This document shows positions 7,436-47,602 of a stretch of DNA of 47,715 nt, in pieces. Origin of the DNA: a virus; the IMG/VR virus record IMGVR_UViG_3300019360_000019, positions 1-47,715 of that record; one strand, written 5' to 3'. The number at the start of each line of letters is the position of its first letter. Within the stretch, counting starts at the first letter, position 1. Both the position numbers and the translations under genes were made by a program. The notes under the pieces are model-generated. The model was not told the DNA's origin. It worked only from the letters and a program-made list of their open reading frames with translations, and did no database searches.

Positions 7436-7579
7436 ATGTCGCGTGAGCAGTGTCGGGACGTCGTCGGGCGCCACGTGCGATTGCTTCGTGATATCAGCAC
7501 GCGCGGCGGCGAGACCTTCAAGGCGGGGCGGATCATGGTTTGCTACGGCACGTATCGTGGCCGATTCACCTTGCAGTGA
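7436..7579 (+). CDS. Small conserved-type phage protein, 47 residues
   Basis: ATG 7436 preceded by AGGAGAAGGGG. The sequence RHVRLLRDISTRGGETFKAG followed by CYGTYRGRFTLQ is typical of a compact beta-barrel small phage protein with a glycine-rich turn; I recall such short proteins without known function. It follows its upstream neighbour by two bases. Confidence 0.6.
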   Translation: MSREQCRDVVGRHVRLLRDISTRGGETFKAGRIMVCYGTYRGRFTLQ

Positions 7580-7680
7580 CCGAGACTGAGCCAGCCGGGC
7601 GCGTGGCGAGGCGTGAGCCAAGTCAACCGCGATGCCTTCGAGATCCTCCCTGATGAAAAGGCAGCGGAGGCGGGGCCCGC

Positions 7681-8245
7681 ATGAGCACACGCCCGGTGGT
7701 CACGCGCGACAACTACGCGGCCACGCTCGCCGGACTCTGGGCACTCGCCGCGCTCATCGAGCCGATGCCTTGCGCAAAGAGAACGACGAGCTGCGCCGGC
7801 AACTCGAGCAGCTCGAGCGGCGACCGGACCCTCGACCATCGGGACCGATCCCGCTGGTCGTCGACCAGGTGCCCCGTCCCGTGACCGGGCTCGACGAGGC
7901 GCTCTACCAGTCGCTCAAGGCGAGGAGCTGCCGCAGGAGCCGGCCGTGCTTCGCATCCTCGTGGAGCAACCTGAGCTCCGTATCGAGATTGAGCGCCAGA
8001 TCGTGACCGTCGATGGGGCGTCCGGTGATGGGTGGATCGGGCGACTCATCGCCAACGGGTTCTTCGATCAGGTGACGACCGGATACGCCGTCTTCATGGA
8101 ACTGCAGCGCCGTGGCGCCAAGCTGGCCAGGCCGACGGCGTACTCGTGGTGCGACAACATGGTGCGCCGCGGCTTCCTCACGAAGGAAGGCAAGGAAGGC
8201 TATCGAGCGGTCGCCGGTATGAAGGTCAACATCGTGGAGCGATGA
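7681..8245 (+). pseudogene. Frameshifted coiled-coil/winged-helix-like gene
   Basis: Three consecutive frames read as one protein. It starts at ATG 7681 (STRPVVTRDNYAATLAGLWA), passes near 7765-7770 into the frame with ALRKENDELRRQLEQLE (coiled coil) and a proline-rich linker to LDEALYQSLKA, then near 7920-7925 into EELPQEPAVLRILVEQPELR and a C-terminal helix-turn-helix-like part (IGRLIANGFF, TAYSWCDNMVRRGFLTKE). Both shifts equal a one-base deletion, giving about 187 residues if repaired. The last piece is also open from ATG 7946 (99 residues) and could be made alone. Either decayed, or an assembly error. Likely DNA-binding if intact. Confidence 0.6.
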
Positions 8246-20136: not shown

Positions 20137-20613
20137 ATGAGCAAGACCATTACGATCGAGGTCGGCGGCAAGGAGCGGAAGCTCAAGTTCGGCCATGGCG
20201 CCGCGCAGGCCGCGACCGACGAGTGCAACCGGAACATCCCCTTCTCGATCACGCGACTGCAGATCGCCGACGTGTGCAACCTGGCGCTGAAAGGTGACAC
20301 CGGTGCTGTTCAGGTCCTTCTCCGTCATGGCGTCCTCGACGCGTCGGGCAAGCCCGACCGGACGCTCACCGCAGAGAAGGTCTATCGCTGGATCGATGAG
20401 CGCCTCGACCCCGACGGCTATGCAGGCGACCTCTCCTACTTCTCGATCCCGATCGCGCAGGCGCTCATCGCCGCCGGCGTCGTCAAGGCCGAAGCCGTGG
20501 TGCTGCCCGAGGCCTCCGACGAAGCGCTGACGCAGGAGGCGGGATCGAACGGGGGCCGCCCTCCGCTGGCGGCCGTGCCGAGCGGCTCGGCCGCATCGTC
20601 GGCTACGAGCTGA
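20137..20613 (+). CDS. Tail assembly chaperone G
   Basis: 158 residues. It starts with a beta hairpin (KTITIEVGGKERKLKFGHG) and continues helical, like siphovirus gpG proteins. It precedes the tape measure and overlaps a frame shifted by -1 that continues to 20984, the classical G/GT arrangement. The chaperone coats the tape measure during tail assembly and is absent from the finished virion. AGAGAGGGAA precedes the start. Confidence 0.82.
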   Translation: MSKTITIEVGGKERKLKFGHGAAQAATDECNRNIPFSITRLQIADVCNLALKGDTGAVQVLLRHGVLDASGKPDRTLTAEKVYRWIDERLDPDGYAGDLSYFSIPIAQALIAAGVVKAEAVVLPEASDEALTQEAGSNGGRPPLAAVPSGSAASSATS

Positions 20614-20984
20614 TCGGGGGCATCGACCTCGAGGCCTGGCGCGAGGAGACCGAGCCCGTCGTCCTGGGGTTCGGTCTCCCACCAGAGGAGTTCGAGTTGC
20701 GCACGGTGGCGGAGATCGAGCAGCTGATCGCGGGCAAGCTGCGGGAGCGCGAGCTCCAGCGCGATCTCTTCGTCGAGCAGGACCTCCGCACGACCGAGTT
20801 CAAGTCAGGCGTCACCTTCCAGCGTCTGGTCGGCCGCGAGCCCATCCGCCTCGACCCGCGCTTTCAGATCGTCGTGGATCCCGAGGAGGACGCCGACGAC
20901 GAGGCGCTCTGGGCGAAGGAAGAGGCCGAAGCGCGCCGGCATGCCGAGGCGATCCGCCGCGGGGAGATTCCCGGAGACGCCTGA
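20556..20984 (+). CDS. T domain of chaperone GT (via -1 frameshift)
   Basis: Frame -1 relative to G is open through the end of G and reads as protein (RLGRIVGYELIGGIDLEAW, VLGFGLPPEEFELRTVAEIE, ending RRGEIPGDA). It has no good start of its own beyond a TTG at 20697. The likely slip region is C-GGG-GGC at 20550-20556 in the G frame; slipping there gives a fusion of about 282 residues. In lambda, GT recruits tube subunits to the tape measure. The slip site is a proposal; the overlap and order are directly visible. Confidence 0.72.
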   Translation, partial: PPSAGGRAERLGRIVGYELIGGIDLEAWREETEPVVLGFGLPPEEFELRTVAEIEQLIAGKLRERELQRDLFVEQDLRTTEFKSGVTFQRLVGREPIRLDPRFQIVVDPEEDADDEALWAKEEAEARRHAEAIRRGEIPGDA

Positions 20985-28146: not shown

Positions 28147-29364
28147 ATGCCCAATCTCACGCCCGGTCCCATCCTGTTCGACCTCGGCGCCGACCACGTC
28201 CAGCTCTGGGCGCGCACCGACGGCCCGGCCGCGCTGCACGTCGTGTGCACGCCGCTCGACGTCGGCGAGCCGGTGATATTCCCGGCGGTCACGACGGACG
28301 CCGCGAGCGACTACACGGCGGCGATCCTGATCGCCGGGCTGACGCCCGGGACGGTCTACCAGGCGGAGCTCTCCGTCGACGGCGTCGCCGCGGGGCTGCG
28401 CCAATTCACCACGCTGCCGGCCGAGGGCGATCCGGCGGAGCTGCGCCTCGCGTTCGTCTCTGACACCTTCCGCGCCTATCCGGCGCCGGCGCTTGGCGCG
28501 CTCCGGGCCCTCTGGCCGATGGGCGTCTTCGTCATCGGCGACCACGATCACACGAACTATCTGAGCAACACGTCAACGGCGACGGGCGCGCTGATGAAGG
28601 CGCGCAACGCGCACCGATGCCTCCGCGACGACAGCACGGAGCTCGGGGCCGACGTCTGCGAGTTCATCATCGACGCCGGCGTGCCGATCCTCGGGCACAT
28701 CGCGGACGATCACGACTGCGGCGCCGACAATCGCAACAAGAGCGGCAAGTGGTGGCCCGAGGTCCTGCAGGCCATGCGGGAATACTGGCCGGTCTCCGCC
28801 GATCACGGCTACCTCGAGGGGTACATGTACTCGAGCGTACGAATCGGGCGGACGATCGTCGCGCTGCTCGACACCCGCACGCACCGCGACACGCCGGGCA
28901 CGCACAAGAAGCTCCTGGGCGACGAGCAGTGGGAGTGGCTCGGTGGGGTCGTCGACGAGGTCGGCGCCGGCCAGACGTTCGATCGCCTGGTCCTCGTGAG
29001 CCCGGTTCCGGTTAATCCCCTCCAGCACAAGCTCGATAGCTGGTTCGGCTACACCGACGAGCGCGTGCGGCTGGTTGAGATGCTCGCGCCAATCGTGGGC
29101 CGGGTGGTCGTCGTCTCCGGCGACTGCCATTGGGGCAGCATCGCGCTGCCGCCGATCGTGGCGCTGCCCGAGATCAACATTCCGAAGCTGCAAGAGCAGG
29201 GCTTCGCGAATACGTGCAACAACGCCGCGCCGCAGTGGACGCTCAATTCCCTGACGCCCGGCGGCGGTTTCGGTCTGCTGACGATCAATCCGGCTGCGGT
29301 CCTCGTGGAGATCTACAACGCCGATGGCTCGCTCCGGCTGAGCGCCACGGTGCCGCTGGTCTAG
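28147..29364 (+). CDS. PhoD-family metallophosphodiesterase in the tail module
   Basis: 405 residues from ATG 28147 with AGGAG. Residues 1-92 form an N-terminal beta domain of the fibronectin type often preceding PhoD. The catalytic part shows the PhoD motif series: VIGDHDHTNY (129-138), ADDHDCGADN (186-195), LDTRTHRD (241-248), LGDEQWEWL (257-265), DSWFGYTDERVRLV (297-310) and VVSGDCHWG (322-330), which bind the metal centre. PhoD enzymes cleave phosphodiesters and monophosphates, including teichoic acids. No signal peptide is present, so it is probably virion-bound, acting on a host surface polymer. It lies between adhesin genes. Confidence 0.88.
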   Translation: MPNLTPGPILFDLGADHVQLWARTDGPAALHVVCTPLDVGEPVIFPAVTTDAASDYTAAILIAGLTPGTVYQAELSVDGVAAGLRQFTTLPAEGDPAELRLAFVSDTFRAYPAPALGALRALWPMGVFVIGDHDHTNYLSNTSTATGALMKARNAHRCLRDDSTELGADVCEFIIDAGVPILGHIADDHDCGADNRNKSGKWWPEVLQAMREYWPVSADHGYLEGYMYSSVRIGRTIVALLDTRTHRDTPGTHKKLLGDEQWEWLGGVVDEVGAGQTFDRLVLVSPVPVNPLQHKLDSWFGYTDERVRLVEMLAPIVGRVVVVSGDCHWGSIALPPIVALPEINIPKLQEQGFANTCNNAAPQWTLNSLTPGGGFGLLTINPAAVLVEIYNADGSLRLSATVPLV

Positions 29365-30050: not shown

Positions 30051-30536
30051 ATGTCCAGAGAGTACGTGCTGTCAGACGGCGGTCTCACGCTCGCCAACCA
30101 GGCCGTGACGCTCGGCTTCATCAACCCGGGCACGACGGCGTCCCTGGAAATTCTCCGATGCTGGGCCTCCCAGTCGGCGAACGCCACCAGTGCCCAGCAA
30201 CGCGTCCAGACGAACACCCAGGTGAGCGCGTTCCCGACGGTGGTCTCGAAGACGCCGAGCAAGCTGAAGCTGTCCGACCCGGCCTCGGTCATCACCGGCG
30301 CGACGAACGGCGCGGCCGGGACGTGCGGCATCAACGCGTCGGCCGAGGGCGCGGGCGCCAAGACGGTGCAGCATGCCGATGCCTTCAACGTGCTGAACGG
30401 CCATCTCTGGGTCCCGACGCCGCCCGAGACAATCATCATGAACGCCGGCGCCTCATCGGGATTCGGCTACCACTTCCCGGTGGCCCCCGCGACCCTGACC
30501 AACTGGGCGTTCGGCATCGTGTACCGCGAGTTGTAG
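30051..30536 (+). CDS. Beta-rich tail-tip protein, unknown
   Basis: 161 residues, strong AAGGAGGAG before ATG 30051. S/T/A-rich with regularly spaced strands (LTLANQAVTLGFINPGTTAS, SGFGYHFPVAPATLTNWAFG). Likely a virion protein of the tip; no family recognised. Confidence 0.6.
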   Translation: MSREYVLSDGGLTLANQAVTLGFINPGTTASLEILRCWASQSANATSAQQRVQTNTQVSAFPTVVSKTPSKLKLSDPASVITGATNGAAGTCGINASAEGAGAKTVQHADAFNVLNGHLWVPTPPETIIMNAGASSGFGYHFPVAPATLTNWAFGIVYREL

Positions 30537-34905: not shown

Positions 34906-35049
34906 TCACTTCTTGCCCCACCGTGCCCGCGCCGCCTTCCGGGCGCTGGCGCTCCGCTGCTCCGGCGTCGTGCTCTTCCTCCGTGCCCTCCCGCCCTTGC
35001 GGCCGAGGGCCACGGCTGCCGGATTCTTCCGGCGCTCGCGCGTGCCCAT
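34906..35049 (-). CDS. 47-residue basic GRKGG/ARKAARARWG protein
   Basis: ATG 35049 read leftward, stop at 34906. It contains AVALGRKGGRARRKSTTPEQ and ends SARKAARARWGKK. This short arginine/lysine-rich pattern with RKGG and ARKAA-RWG is one I know from small bacterial and phage DNA-binding-like proteins of unknown role. It lies between a putative leftward promoter and the membrane-protein gene, so the two probably form one accessory transcript. Too short for most gene finders. Confidence 0.65.
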   Translation of the reverse strand: MGTRERRKNPAAVALGRKGGRARRKSTTPEQRSASARKAARARWGKK

Positions 35050-35056
35050 GTGCTGG

Positions 35057-35086
35057 AGCGTAGCGCTACGCATATCCGCATGTCAA
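35057..35086 (-). promoter_or_regulatory. Leftward promoter with 14-bp palindrome
   Basis: On the minus strand a perfect TTGACA (35086-35081) is followed after 18 bases by TACGCT (35062-35057). The perfect palindrome GCGTAGCGCTACGC (35058-35071) covers the -10 region, the classical place for a repressor operator. The preceding GGGCTTGACA is identical to that of the leftward promoter near 39976. It would drive the two leftward genes. Confidence 0.6.
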
Positions 35087-35109: not shown

Positions 35110-35370
35110 ATGCTCACCCCAGAACTCCGCGCCTCACTCGTCCGCGGCCTCTTCCACGCCCTCGTCGTCGCGGCCACCGCGTTCTTCACCGCGTGGACCG
35201 ACCCGAGCATCCCGACGCGCACCCTGGTGTCCGTCTCCGTGCTCCCGGCCCTCGCCGTGTTGGGCAGCCGGTTCATCGGCGAGGGCTGGAAGGATTCTGC
35301 CGCCGCCGCCAAGCCCGGCACGCCGGAGCACGCGGCCCGCGTGGCGCGCTCCACGGGAACAGGCACGTGA
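35110..35370 (+). CDS. Putative holin-like membrane protein
   Basis: 86 residues, AGGAGG before ATG 35110. Two hydrophobic segments (LFHALVVAATAFFTAW and LVSVSVLPALAVLGSRF) separated by a short polar turn, and a polar C-terminus. Size and topology, and position at the start of the lysis block, fit a holin that would perforate the inner membrane, but holins lack conserved motifs. GTGA overlap with the lipoprotein gene. Confidence 0.55.
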   Translation: MLTPELRASLVRGLFHALVVAATAFFTAWTDPSIPTRTLVSVSVLPALAVLGSRFIGEGWKDSAAAAKPGTPEHAARVARSTGTGT

Positions 35371-35750
35371 CCGCCGTGTGGCTCGCCCTCGCGGTCACGC
35401 TCGCCTCGGCCCTGCTCGTGGGCTGCGGCTCCCAGGCCACGGCGCCCGGCGGGACGCTCAGCGTGATGAAGGAGCCGGACACCATCGCGGTGCCGCTGCA
35501 GCCGGCGCGCGACCTCTACGCGACGATTCGCCTGACCGTCAAGGACCGGTTCGCCCACGCCGAGTCCCTCTGTCTCACCGGCAAGCTGCCCGCGGCCACC
35601 TGCCGCCAGGTCGCGCTCGATCGCCAGGCGGCGCAACAGCTCGACTTCGAGATCAATCGATCGCTCACCTCGCCCAAGGCCACGCTGGACGTGGAGAAGA
35701 TCAAGCGCGTTCTCGAGCTATCGGCCAAGCTCATCGGCGCGGCGCTCTGA
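35367..35750 (+). CDS. Lipoprotein (possible outer-membrane spanin)
   Basis: 127 residues from GTG 35367. The N-terminus VTAVWLALAVTLASALLVGC is a lipoprotein signal with an LVGC lipobox; the mature part is helical with RDLYATIRLTVKDRFAHAE and a cysteine pair (ESLCLTGKLPAATC). In a lysis block such a protein could be an o-spanin, though it is longer than most and no clear i-spanin partner is identified; the next gene's transmembrane helix plus long coiled coil is one candidate. Confidence 0.6.
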   Translation: MTAVWLALAVTLASALLVGCGSQATAPGGTLSVMKEPDTIAVPLQPARDLYATIRLTVKDRFAHAESLCLTGKLPAATCRQVALDRQAAQQLDFEINRSLTSPKATLDVEKIKRVLELSAKLIGAAL

Positions 35751-35751
35751 C

Positions 35752-36438
35752 ATGACACCGCCCCTCTCGCCCGACGCGCGCGCCGCCCTCCTGGCCCTCG
35801 GCCAGGCGCGGGCGGTCGCCGAGGCGCGCGTGACGCTGCTCGAAGAGCGTCTCCGGGCCCTCGGCGAGCTGGAGCGCTACTGGCGAGAGCGCGCCAACTA
35901 CTGGCACGTCGAGTGGCTCCGGCTCCACGGACCCCGCCGGCAGTCGGCGCCACATGCGCGGCACCCGGTGGCCCCGCTCGCAGCGGCCTCACGGCGGCTG
36001 GCGGCGATGGGGCGCGCTGCGGTGGCGATGGAGGATGCGAATCTGACCATGCCCGATGCGCCGGTCCTCGACGCGCTGTATCGGCTGCTGGGCCACCCGG
36101 CCTTCGCGTGGTTCGCCGCCCTCGTCGTGTCGGTGGCCGTCATCTGGGTGAGCCTCCGGCTGATCGCCCACGTCGTGGCGCGGCGCGAGGAGACGCTGAT
36201 CGAGGGCAACAAGGTCCTCGAGCAGATCCAGGTCGGGCTCGCGGTGAATACCGCGCACCAGGCCGCCAACGTCGAGGCGCAGCGCTCGGTGACGTCCGTG
36301 CTCGAGCGGATCCGGGAGCGGCTCGACGCGCACGACACGAACGAGGAACGTCGGCACGGGAGCAGCGGTGCCAAGCTCGATCGCCTCCTCGATCTCACGC
36401 GCGAGATCCGCGAGCGCCGGGAGCGGAATCAGGAATGA
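35752..36438 (+). CDS. Single-TM coiled-coil membrane protein
   Basis: 228 residues, ATG 35752. N-terminal helix (EARVTLLEERLRALGELERY), a basic middle, one clear transmembrane segment near 120-142 (FAWFAALVVSVAVIWVSLRL) and a charged coiled-coil C-terminus (SVTSVLERIRERLDAHD). It could anchor lysis components or serve as an inner-membrane spanin-like partner of the lipoprotein; no family recognised. Overlaps the next gene by ATGA. Confidence 0.6.
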   Translation: MTPPLSPDARAALLALGQARAVAEARVTLLEERLRALGELERYWRERANYWHVEWLRLHGPRRQSAPHARHPVAPLAAASRRLAAMGRAAVAMEDANLTMPDAPVLDALYRLLGHPAFAWFAALVVSVAVIWVSLRLIAHVVARREETLIEGNKVLEQIQVGLAVNTAHQAANVEAQRSVTSVLERIRERLDAHDTNEERRHGSSGAKLDRLLDLTREIRERRERNQE

Positions 36439-36701
36439 GCGTAGGAAGGAGAAACGACGACGCATTGCCTGCCTTCATCTGTCCAACGCTCGCTTCCATC
36501 TGTCCCGGCTGCCATCCCGAGGCCGACCTGACGGGCCGCTACGTCGTGGTGGAGCGGTGCAGCGAGCATCCCATCCGCGACGACCTCGCCGGCAGCGAGG
36601 ACGGGCTGGCGACGGTCAGGGGTGATATCTGGGGCTCGGCGGAGGCGGGCGGCGACGGGAACCGGCGGTGGTGCGAGTGGCTGCACCGAGACGCCCGATG
36701 A
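36435..36701 (+). CDS. Hypothetical cysteine-containing protein
   Basis: 88 residues from ATG 36435 (ATGA overlap). Cysteines at CPTLASICPGC and ERCSEH suggest a small zinc site. Ends with GNRRWCEWLHRDAR and overlaps the following 32-residue membrane peptide by ATGA. Function unknown. Confidence 0.55.
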   Translation: MSVGRRNDDALPAFICPTLASICPGCHPEADLTGRYVVVERCSEHPIRDDLAGSEDGLATVRGDIWGSAEAGGDGNRRWCEWLHRDAR

Positions 36702-36796
36702 GCGAATCGGTCACGGCCGCGCTGCTGCTCGCGACGCTCGCGGGCCTCTGCGTGCTCGGCGCGTTCCTCGCGATCCGCGCGACGTGCTGGGGATGA
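36698..36796 (+). CDS. 32-residue membrane peptide
   Basis: ATG 36698 to TGA 36796, in ATGA overlaps with both neighbours. Nearly the whole peptide is one transmembrane helix (VTAALLLATLAGLCVLGAFL). In a lysis block it may be a small holin/antiholin-type or regulatory peptide. Very short, so the call rests on overlaps and hydrophobicity. Confidence 0.5.
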   Translation: MSESVTAALLLATLAGLCVLGAFLAIRATCWG

Positions 36797-36921
36797 ACGT
36801 CTTCCCCCTGCCGCCGCTGCACCTCGACCCACGGATGTGGCCCGAGATGACGCTCTACGCCACGACAGTCCTCCTCGAAGCCGAGAGCGAGCCTGAGCGT
36901 GGCCAGCTCGCGGTCGCGTGA
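36793..36921 (+). CDS. SleB-type endolysin, N-terminal fragment
   Basis: 42 residues from ATG 36793, ending at TGA 36919-36921. MTLYATTVLLEAESEPERGQ and then LAVA correspond to the first helix of SleB/Hydrolase_2 cell-wall hydrolases, including the likely catalytic glutamate in LEAESEP. Relatives continue as AVAWVIRNR; here the tryptophan position is TGA and the frame then continues as VIRNRMD. It is therefore the first part of a gene broken, or recoded, by one nonsense codon. Confidence 0.7.
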   Translation: MNVFPLPPLHLDPRMWPEMTLYATTVLLEAESEPERGQLAVA

Positions 36922-37248
36922 GTGATCCGGAACCGGATGGACCGGAGCGGCGACGACGGCATCGCCGAGGTGATCCTGAAGCCCTGGCAGTTCTCCTGCT
37001 TCAATGACGACTACGCCCTCGCGCGGAAGGCGCGCCTCACAGGGATCGACGCGATCCGGTGGGAGCGGGCCTGGCGCTGCGCCTGCTCGGCCTACTGGAA
37101 GCTCGTCGACGACCCGACGCAGGGAGCGACGTTCTACCTCAATCCAGAGCTGACGCGGCAGATTCGGCCGGGCGGGACGCTGCCGAGCTGGTACGACGCG
37201 CGGCGGGTGACGCTGCGCGAAGGGAAACACGAGTTCCTGACGGCGTGA
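36922..37248 (+). CDS. SleB-type endolysin, main part
   Basis: 108 residues from GTG 36922, immediately after the TGA and in the same frame as the fragment before it. VIRNRMDRSGDDGIAEVILKP continues into KPWQFSCFND, DDPTQGATFYLNPEL and PSWYDARRVTLREGKHEF, the conserved blocks of the SleB cell-wall hydrolase domain, which cleaves peptidoglycan. Without the upstream 42 residues it lacks the first catalytic helix. It may be made by restart on TGAGTG, by readthrough as a 151-residue enzyme, or not at all. It is the last rightward lysis gene, facing the leftward operon. Confidence 0.8.
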   Translation: MIRNRMDRSGDDGIAEVILKPWQFSCFNDDYALARKARLTGIDAIRWERAWRCACSAYWKLVDDPTQGATFYLNPELTRQIRPGGTLPSWYDARRVTLREGKHEFLTA

Positions 37249-39388: not shown

Positions 39389-39598
39389 CGCGTGCCCTCC
39401 TCGGCGCAGTCCTCGCAGAAGTCGAGATGCAGTTCGCGGCCGTCGGACCGGCCCCGCCGCGATCGGCCTCGGCTGGGCCATGTGGCCACAATCGAGGATG
39501 AGCGCCGTGGCGTCACACTGCGAGCACGTCCGCTCCTGCGCGCGCTCGGCGCAGCTCGCGCGCCCGCACGACTCGGGATCGTCCGGGATGTATGTCAT
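39385..39598 (-). pseudogene. Frameshifted zinc-binding small gene
   Basis: Starts at ATG 39598 (MTYIPDDPESCGRASC, then CSQCDATALILDCGHMAQP). After about 45 residues the sensible reading moves to another frame giving GRSDGRELHLDFCEDCAEEG and the operon-typical TR stop at 39385. One extra G in the GCGGGGCC run near 39450 explains it. Unshifted, the frame stays open and fuses in frame to the next gene. Repaired length is about 70 residues with CxxC pairs. Sequencing error or real mutation cannot be separated here. Confidence 0.6.
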
Positions 39599-39858
39599 CG
39601 CCTGCCCCCCGTCGATTCGCACGCCGCGACGATCGACGCGACGATCGATGCGTCCGCGCTCGGCGCGCGGTCGTATGACCAGCGTCGCTCGGTCGTGGAG
39701 TAGGACCACGTGCTCTTGCGCGCGCTCACGCGCACCCAGCCATTCCGCTCCCGCGCGAAGCTGAGGACGAGGGTATACGTATACCCAGTATGGTCGGGGC
39801 CGACTACGATCCGGTCCTTGCTGATGTGCCCCTTGATCTCGAGGTGGGCCTCGTTCAT
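39595..39858 (-). CDS. First gene of the leftward operon, small beta protein
   Basis: 87 residues from ATG 39858, with AGGAGG in the context CAGGAGGATGCGATGA. Beta-rich (AHLEIKGHISKDRIVVGPDH, TYTLVLSFARERNGWVRVSA), resembling small DNA- or protein-binding barrels. It is about 90 bases from the putative promoter and thus the first translated gene. Function unknown. Confidence 0.65.
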   Translation of the reverse strand: MNEAHLEIKGHISKDRIVVGPDHTGYTYTLVLSFARERNGWVRVSARKSTWSYSTTERRWSYDRAPSADASIVASIVAACESTGGRR

Positions 39859-43419: not shown

Positions 43420-43586
43420 GCACCGGCACGCAGCCGCGCGCCGGTTGTCCGGTCTGCAAGCGCGACGTCGTCGTCGGCAAGAGCGGGCGGATGCGAATGC
43501 ATCCGCAGAAGCTGCGGGTATCCGATCGGTACTGCGCCGGCTCTGGGAAGAAGGCGCCGATGCCCGCCGAGGCGCAGGCGCGATGA
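43416..43586 (+). CDS. 56-residue zinc-binding microprotein
   Basis: ATG 43416 overlaps the previous stop (ATGA); TGA 43586 overlaps the next ATG. CPVCKRDVVVGKSGRMRMHP with a later YCAGSGKK gives CxxC-H-C ligands of a compact zinc finger. Short, but overlaps and motif both support it. Confidence 0.6.
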   Translation: MSTGTQPRAGCPVCKRDVVVGKSGRMRMHPQKLRVSDRYCAGSGKKAPMPAEAQAR

Positions 43587-43972
43587 CCATGGGCGCGGCG
43601 GCCGCGGCCCGCTGGACCGAAGGCATGGTGACGCTCACGCGCCGCGTCACCCGCACGCGCGTGCCGGCGATGCTACGGGGAGGACCCGGACGATCCGACG
43701 TTTTACATCAGGCGGGCCGCTGGTTCGTGGTCCACGTCGAGAGCGGGTATCACGTCCTTTGCTTCGCCGTCGAGTCCGAGGCGCTGGCGGCCGCCGAGAC
43801 CTTGCTCGCGGAGCCGCTCGCGTGGACGGAGGGGCCTCGGACTCTAGAGGACTGGCAGCAGCCATATGTGAACGCCGTTCGCTCGCTCTTCGCCGGGCGC
43901 TTGGCGTGCTGCAAGGCCCGGCCCGAGCCGATGCCGACGCTCTATGTCGATGAAATGGGGGCGGCGCGATGA
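43583..43972 (+). CDS. Hypothetical protein
   Basis: 129 residues, ATGA-coupled. A beta part (GRWFVVHVESGYHVLCFAVE) followed by a helix (SEALAAAETLLAEP) and a C-terminal region with CCKARPEPMPTLYVDE. The first 40 residues are basic and may be a leader or the result of a wrong start; ATG 43625 is an alternative. Unknown function. Confidence 0.55.
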   Translation: MTMGAAAAARWTEGMVTLTRRVTRTRVPAMLRGGPGRSDVLHQAGRWFVVHVESGYHVLCFAVESEALAAAETLLAEPLAWTEGPRTLEDWQQPYVNAVRSLFAGRLACCKARPEPMPTLYVDEMGAAR

Positions 43973-44230: not shown

Positions 44231-44428
44231 ATGACCAAGTACGCCGAGGTCGTTCACGCGTTCAAACGCGATCTGATCGCCCGCACGCTGGCCGACTGCG
44301 CCGGCAACCGCTCGGAAGCGGCGCGGCGGCTCGGACTCGAGCGGCAGTACCTCTGCCGGCTCATCAAGGCCTATGGCGTCGAGGATGCGCGGCGCGGGAC
44401 GCACGGGCGCCCGAGGAAGGTGGCGTGA
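44231..44428 (+). CDS. Fis-type helix-turn-helix protein
   Basis: 65 residues, ATG 44231. FKRDLIARTLADCAGNRSEA then ARRLGLERQYLCRLIKAYGV is the Fis/NtrC C-terminal helix-turn-helix (HTH_8), here almost the whole protein. Such stand-alone domains bind DNA as dimers and can bend it, acting in transcription or recombination. Basic tail GTHGRPRKVA. Likely a small regulator of the surrounding early genes. Confidence 0.75.
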   Translation: MTKYAEVVHAFKRDLIARTLADCAGNRSEAARRLGLERQYLCRLIKAYGVEDARRGTHGRPRKVA

Positions 44429-44439
44429 AGGAGACCACG

Positions 44440-44749
44440 ATGACTGCACGCGAAATCCTGGAAGCCGCGGCGGACAAGATCGAGGAGGCAGGCGTGTTCT
44501 GGCGGGGGGATGTCAGCGAGTTCGAGCCGAAGCGGCTCTGCGCGGTCATGGCCATCGCCTATGTCGCCCAGCGCGGTGGCGTCACCAGCGACGCGCCGGA
44601 GTTCAGCCGCCGTCAAGGACGCCCTCACGAGGGAACTCGGGCTCGAGTCGTTCACCCGCATCCTCGGCTGGAACGCCCGGAGCACCGCCGCCGAGGTCGC
44701 GGCCACGATGCGCAACGCGACGAGGTGGGTCAAGGAGGAGGTCGCCTGA
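44440..44749 (+). pseudogene. Frameshifted small gene of phage DUF type
   Basis: Starts at ATG 44440 (AAGGAG seven bases before): MTAREILEAAADKIEEAGVF, then KRLCAVMAIAYVAQRGGVTS. Near 44600 the sensible reading moves one base on to AAVKDALTRELGLESFTRIL, then TAAEVAATMRNATRWVKEEV, ending at TGA 44749 in TGATG with the next gene. One surplus base in AGCCGCCG would explain it. Repaired, it is about 102 residues and resembles small phage proteins with this helix and ILGWNAR-type end. The unshifted frame fuses in frame into the next gene. Confidence 0.6.
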
Positions 44750-45027
44750 TGTGCAACGACTACGACTTCATGCTGGCGAGCCCGGAACCGGCGACGCCAG
44801 TCCCGACACCCGAACAGATTCGCGTGTGGCACGACGAGCAGAACCGTGACGGCTACGTCGACCGCTGCACGCTGACCGACCTCGCCGACTGGTGCGAGAG
44901 CATCATGGCCCGCTGCCTGCGCGAGCGGATCGCTTGCCATACCGACCTCGCCCGGACGGCCATCAAGATTCGCGAGGTGGCCGAGATGCGCGAGCGCTGC
45001 GAGGCGGTAGGAGACGGCCGTCGATGA
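44749..45027 (+). CDS. Hypothetical helical protein
   Basis: 92 residues from ATG 44749. CNDYDFMLASPEPATPVPTP leads into helices (LTDLADWCESIMARCLRERI, TAIKIREVAEMRERCEAVGD). No family recognised. ATGA overlap with the next gene. Confidence 0.55.
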   Translation: MCNDYDFMLASPEPATPVPTPEQIRVWHDEQNRDGYVDRCTLTDLADWCESIMARCLRERIACHTDLARTAIKIREVAEMRERCEAVGDGRR

Positions 45028-45515: not shown

Positions 45516-45586
45516 TGCAGGGCGGGCGGTCTCGGCCTAGGGCTCATAACCCTGGAGACCCGGTTCAACTCCGGGCCCTGCTACCA
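45516..45586 (+). tRNA. tRNA with CAT anticodon, initiator-like, short D-arm
   Basis: Acceptor TGCAGGG (45516-45522) pairs with CCCTGCT (45576-45582) except for a T:T at 1-72. Anticodon stem TAGGG/CCCTG with loop CTCATAA (45543-45549) gives CAT; T-arm CCCGG-TTCAACT-CCGGG (45559-45575) is perfect, followed by A and an encoded CCA. Three G:C pairs next to the anticodon loop and the unpaired 1-72 are initiator tRNA hallmarks. The D-arm is short: only 15 bases lie between acceptor and anticodon stems (3-bp stem, no clear GG loop motif), so it may be degenerate. Confidence 0.72.
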
Positions 45587-46979: not shown

Positions 46980-47602
46980 CGACGCTGCGACGCTGGAGGT
47001 CTGCGCGCATCGCGCGACCGACCATCCCGACTCGGCGCTGGCCGTGTTCGGAGGAACGTCATGAGACATGTGCCCGTCTGGGAATTTCGACTGCGGGTCA
47101 TGCACGCGATCTCCATGTGCCGCTACCAGGATTCCCGGGCGGCGCATGGGAGTGTCAGGGAGACGACGAGTGCGAGTGCGGCCGATTCCGAGAGCGGTTC
47201 ATTCGACTAATGACCGACCATCCCGAGCGGGCGCTGGAGGTGTTTCGCGTGATGCTCTCCGTCAAAGTCTATCCACACCGTCCCGGAATCGCCATGGGCA
47301 ATATCCTGTGGCCGGGCAAGTTCCCGGCTCGCTACAACCTCTTCCCACCGGATCATCCCTGCGCGCCGAGGTCGCAGGTCTTCAACGACGATAACCCCGG
47401 CCAGTATGGCAATGGCGGCGCTCTCGCCGCTTTCCGCGCGCGCGGCTATTGGGCCTCGTGCTTCCCGGAGGGCGACGGCATCACGTGGAAGCAGTTGAAG
47501 GACCAGAGCGACGCGCAGTGCCTAGAGGACATCCGCGAGTGCTTCACCTCATGGAACGCGCAGTGGGCGGGCCCTAAGCGCGGCCGGGGAGCGATCCCAT
47601 GA
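46976..47602 (+). CDS. Hypothetical cysteine-containing protein, start uncertain
   Basis: 208 residues from ATG 46976. The first 45-60 residues are arginine-rich and doubtful. From about residue 55 (GAWECQGDDECECGRFRERF) it reads well, through VMLSVKVYPHRPGIAMGNIL, WPGKFPARYNLFPPDHP and GYWASCFPEGDGITWKQLK. In other frames near 47065-47120, cysteine-rich text (CPSGNFDCGSC) also looks protein-like, so another start or small frame errors are possible; ATG 47211 gives a safe 130-residue core. No family recognised. Confidence 0.5.
   Translation: MTTLRRWRSARIARPTIPTRRWPCSEERHETCARLGISTAGHARDLHVPLPGFPGGAWECQGDDECECGRFRERFIRLMTDHPERALEVFRVMLSVKVYPHRPGIAMGNILWPGKFPARYNLFPPDHPCAPRSQVFNDDNPGQYGNGGALAAFRARGYWASCFPEGDGITWKQLKDQSDAQCLEDIRECFTSWNAQWAGPKRGRGAIP

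Follow-up and report, generated by a model that had tools for sequence, protein, structure and literature searches.

The window analysed here is the whole of the virus record IMGVR_UViG_3300019360_000019 (47,715 bases, about 69% GC), in which no end repeats were found. It carries genes for an integrase, a repressor-like HTH protein and a ParB-like protein, structural genes (lambda-type terminase, portal, head protease, decoration and major head proteins), and tail genes including a tape measure of 1794 residues, after which comes the probable lysis cassette. Of these genes, the first two show the phage to be temperate. It is a lambda-like temperate siphophage, and the endolysin gene ends its late/lysis operon. 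No close sibling of the phage was found, the best viral-contig match of the head protein being 43% identical, and no host or host flank was identified for the record.

Some other features of the record are given here for completeness. A gene for a PhoD-like phosphatase/phosphodiesterase (28147-29361; PF09423, 5e-10) lies within the tail module. At 20137-20984, upstream of the tape measure gene, a tail-protein gene continues into the following ORF by a change of frame, with no start codon in between; the lambda-type G/GT programmed frameshift usually occurs at this place and is putative here. A small basic antisense ORF (34906-35073, minus strand; RKGGRARR...TPEQRSASARKAARARW) without a Pfam match occupies a gap otherwise poor in genes. 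At 45516-45586, ARAGORN calls a tRNA-Met(CAT) which stays under the Rfam tRNA threshold and may be a degenerate tRNA or the remnant of an attachment site.

The endolysin gene, its two pieces, its neighbours in the cassette and the interrupted genes elsewhere in the record are collected in Table 1.

Table 1 Coordinates of the endolysin gene, the neighbouring ORFs and further interrupted genes
Feature	Position	Strand	Basis
SleB-type (Hydrolase_2) endolysin gene, single frame with TGA interruption	36793..37248	+	Pfam, PHROGs, model
In-frame TGA; TGG (Trp) in the closest relative	36919..36921	+	Sequence, alignment
N-terminal piece, 42 residues, holds invariant Glu29	36793..36921	+	No family match alone
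C-terminal piece of 108 residues, read from the GTG behind the stop, without Glu29	36922..37248	+	PF07486 1.4e-8 alone
32-residue ORF, one membrane span, stop overlaps endolysin start (ATGA)	36698..36796	+	Sequence, ORF call; function predicted
88-residue ORF overlapping both neighbours	36435..36701	+	Sequence; no family match
228-residue ORF, one hydrophobic span; probable lysis-cassette or membrane protein	35752..36438	+	Predicted; no family match
127-residue ORF, lipoprotein-like signal (LLVGC); spanin candidate	35367..35750	+	ORF call, prediction
86-residue membrane ORF; holin candidate	35110..35370	+	Predicted
Small ORF reading as one gene across in-frame TGA 7577-7579	7436..7684	+	Codon signal on both sides, sequence
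Gene distributed over three frames; frame apparently shifts near 7761 and 7922	7681..8245	+	L125 homologue is one open frame; scan
Gene broken by apparent frameshift near 44606	44425..44750	+	One homologue and phrog_762 span both pieces

The endolysin frame starts with ATG at 36793, a start that overlaps the stop of the previous ORF in the same way as at many other gene joints of this phage. A SleB/Hydrolase_2 endolysin gene should be one uninterrupted open frame. This one is interrupted once, by the TGA at 36919-36921, which is followed directly by a GTG (36922) and 108 open codons up to the final TGA at 37246-37248. Coordinates, phase and sequence of the interrupted frame are as described in a first-pass annotation of this DNA. 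That annotation had also read the two adjacent frames of the same phase as one SleB/Hydrolase_2 enzyme, and the profile searches bear this out. The read-through product matches Pfam PF07486 with 56.8 bits (3.7e-15; curated cut-off 27) and is annotated by PHROGs as endolysin (1.1e-13), while the downstream piece alone still reaches 35.7 bits. Both sides of the TGA are thus parts of one Hydrolase_2 domain, and an intact homologue with 64% identity aligns across the break. An open stretch of 108 codons would arise by chance in DNA of such composition with P of about 0.11, which is not significant alone; the endolysin identity is real rather than a chance effect because of the homology and not because of the length of the open frame. 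Codon usage downstream of the TGA is normal.

An alignment-based AlphaFold model of the read-through protein has a pLDDT of 94.8, and its sole significant Foldseek matches in the PDB are the SleB catalytic domains 4f55 (2.1e-4, probability 1.00) and 4fet. The model thereby predicts a SleB-type fold with the conserved glutamate, a fold of the lytic-transglycosylase type. The lytic transglycosylase activity of SleB requires a catalytic glutamate (PMC12331253). Glu29 is invariant in an alignment of 26 rows and aligns with a SleB glutamate, and is predicted from this alignment to be the counterpart of the essential catalytic residue. In the model, the TGA position is located after Glu29 in the middle of helix 2 (residues 35-52). 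The stop splits this helix and parts Glu29 from the remaining domain, and therefore neither fragment is predicted to be active alone; by the same reasoning, neither should fold on its own.

Next to the break, the closest relative (L002, 64% identical) is intact and has TGG in place of the TGA and GTC as the next codon, so neither the stop nor the GTG is conserved. The position was compared in 34 viral and 80 bacterial loci, and a stop occurs there in none of the 114. The viral loci have Trp in 23 cases, Ser in 10 and Glu in 1; they include some repeat fetches or near-identical records and come from two search patterns, one of which favoured Trp or Ser at the site and biases these proportions, while the other left the site untouched. 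The bacterial loci have Glu (39), Ser (38), Trp (2) or Ala (1) and contain no stop anywhere in the aligned stretch. With Trp, Ser or Glu in most relatives, the position is a variable, tolerant helix site and not a catalytic one. The first-pass annotation had expected Trp in the relatives, which is correct for the closer ones including L002 but does not extend to the wider family. It had also proposed a search of the relatives for the same TGA, and this stop was absent from all the viral and bacterial loci. A DNA pattern accepting TGA or TGG retrieved no second copy of the phage from the viral contigs, although near-identical records may be hidden there.

The GTG adjoins the stop as had been noted, and coupled starts are common in this phage; termination followed by restart could in principle yield two pieces that assemble into a split enzyme. 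We regard this as extremely unlikely. The cut would fall within the modelled helix 35-52, the closest relative has GTC in place of the GTG, and the ribosome-site energy at 36922 (-2.4) equals the random median. Moreover, no split version of the gene was found among the 34 viral and 80 bacterial loci. The proposed use of the GTG as a restart codon consequently did not hold up.

A change of the genetic code was considered as well. TGA ends 33 of 49 confidently called genes, structural genes among them (TAG ends 13 and TAA 3), and no structural or late gene other than the endolysin gene has an internal TGA. A global recoding of TGA to Trp was therefore rejected, in agreement with the earlier view that TGA is the normal stop in this phage. 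No suppressor tRNA with a UCA anticodon reading UGA was found in the standard scan, where the tRNA-Met was the only call, and a very relaxed ARAGORN run returned only noise. Since a matching suppressor tRNA is present in only 35-40% of recoded genomes (PMC10136315), its absence is weak evidence; the lack of other in-frame TGA codons in late genes is the stronger argument against recoding. Selenocysteine at the TGA was rejected, too, as the relatives have Trp, Ser or Glu and not Cys, and the special hairpin after the stop is absent.

The first-pass annotation had offered a timing device for lysis as one option. With such a programmed stop, lysis would be delayed by regulated readthrough or by a suppressor specific to one stage, as has been proposed for the recoded lysis genes of crAss-like phages. 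The type and position of the gene suit this idea. In some gut phages, lysis genes are enriched in recoded stops, many of these phages having no known suppressor tRNA, and in crAss-like phages these stops belong to a wider recoding of late genes (PMC10136315). Here, however, TGA terminates the late genes and interrupts none of the others, and no relative shares the stop. Programmed readthrough would be recognized by a conserved stop together with a leaky context or a stimulating RNA structure, and neither was found: the RNA 3' of the stop has a folding energy average for coding sequence in this phage and forms no unusual hairpin, and the base right after the TGA is G. With no positive support, a programmed stop is very improbable, and the designed mechanisms remain improbable even when all are taken together.

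A simpler form of readthrough would need no evolved signal. If the TGA is real, misreading by the tRNA-Trp of the host at a low rate could restore the ancestral residue, and the phage would still lyse its host, but later. UGA is the leakiest stop, and tRNA-Trp misreads it in E. coli and B. subtilis (PMC5289835); the close relatives have Trp at this position, and the frame after the stop has no further interruption and a normal codon usage. In bacteria, however, the leaky contexts are UGA-A for misreading by tRNA-Trp and UGA-C for weak termination (PMC5289835), and not UGA-G as found here. A recent change or an error would leave the downstream frame just as open, and the other lesions of the record differ in type. 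We thus consider leaky natural nonsense rather unlikely. Its extended version, in which a retained TGA yields just enough late endolysin so that one leaky codon times lysis without a suppressor tRNA, is highly doubtful; were the TGA real and retained, it would be a means of slowing lysis that needs no suppressor.

Other lesions of the record were looked for with a frame-aware scan and by visual reading, and the endolysin gene proved not to be the only one that is broken. A two-strand scan with comparison contigs replaced a single-strand scan, which had given many antisense false positives. The scan flagged 6 frame jumps in the 48-kb record (one of them, at 20577, normal), compared with 4 in total in eight comparison sequences of 64-72% GC that amount to about 150 kb and partly overlap. 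The jump at 20577 was discarded as a lesion: it precedes the tape measure gene and was taken for the frameshift site that is usual for tail chaperones. Likewise, the TGA at 8243 is the natural C-terminus of its family, and the TAG codons at 30534 and 30759 are ordinary gene ends with new starts immediately after.

For two of the frameshifts, near 7922 and near 44606, homologues provide support. A shift of frame near 7922 is needed to align the gene that ends at 8245 with the single open frame of L125. The gene starting near 44425 can be aligned over almost its entire length to phrog_762 and to a protein of Caulobacter phage CcrPW, but only if the frame is changed near 44606. In the former gene, the C-terminal part is similar to the terminal portion of a P-loop protein of 525 residues in L125. 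The TGA at 7577 is likely a second in-frame interruption, in a gene for which no homologues were found. Additional frameshifts are suspected near 7761, 39444 (minus strand), 43674, 43709 and 47.1 kb, on the grounds of codon usage and inspection by eye. Apparent single-base frameshifts mark the small accessory genes at 43580-43972, 47060-47602 and 39390-39622 (minus strand); among these and the gene at 44425-44750, homologue support was found for the latter only. The 27-kb structural module (9.4 to 36.4 kb) contained no other lesions in this search, in which about half of simulated deletions were detected in that module and fewer (8/40) in the right-hand part.

Such a pattern could arise if the endolysin gene and several small genes had been truly inactivated in a defective integrated element. 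The integrase and repressor-like genes of a temperate phage and the several broken small genes fit a decaying prophage. Under neutral decay, however, it would be unexpected that the terminase, portal, protease, major head and tape-measure genes are all open at full length, and the record lacks a recognizable host or host flank. Hence, prophage decay is unlikely, too.

The evidence is best explained by an ordinary SleB-type endolysin gene in which one base is defective, be it through an error of the consensus or through a true nonsense mutation, and we consider this very probable. The change of this base would have made TGA out of an ancestral sense codon, which in the close relatives encodes Trp. 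If translated as written, the gene would give a 42-residue fragment with the glutamate at the catalytic position and perhaps a C-terminal restart piece, and we infer that endolysin activity is lost. The options of a dead endolysin or one wrong base, both named in the first-pass annotation, are favoured because no relative has the stop, neither a suppressor tRNA nor a recoding signal was found, the restart codon is not conserved, and other genes of the record are broken. The occurrence of several lesions in one record favours a consensus error, to which we give about an even chance. That the structural module is clean points to an uneven depth of reads or to true mutations in genes that the phage can do without. 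A nonsense mutation actually present in the sampled phage or prophage, whether or not it is slightly leaky, is quite possible at somewhat less than an even chance. At most, a background level of UGA misreading by the tRNA-Trp of the host would soften its effect. Since leaky nonsense and prophage decay both count as real mutations, the likelihoods we assign to them overlap with that of the one-base defect. The preferred explanation is weakened by the uneven spread of the errors or decay, with the structural module clean, and by the fact that codon usage and visual reading are the basis for several of the other lesions.

A striking in-frame stop in one gene of a metagenomic phage should be weighed together with the whole record, in which other small genes are broken as well. 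The SleB/Hydrolase_2 (PF07486) endolysins of IMGVR_UViG_3300009177_000034 (64% identity) and of the Agrobacterium phages Atu_ph02 and Atu_ph03 (about 33%) have the same domain and share the conserved Glu, QFS and C-terminal motifs with the present gene but are uninterrupted at the TGA position. The crAss-like and other gut phages using genetic codes 4 and 15 resemble our case in having an in-frame stop in a lysis gene. Unlike the present phage, in which TGA is a normal terminator and a suppressor tRNA was not found, they have many recoded late genes and, in some cases, suppressor tRNAs. In metagenomic phage contigs, nonsense mutations and consensus errors are likewise single-base, unique to the record and accompanied by frameshifts in other genes; the difference is that the lesions here are unevenly spread and spare the structural module.
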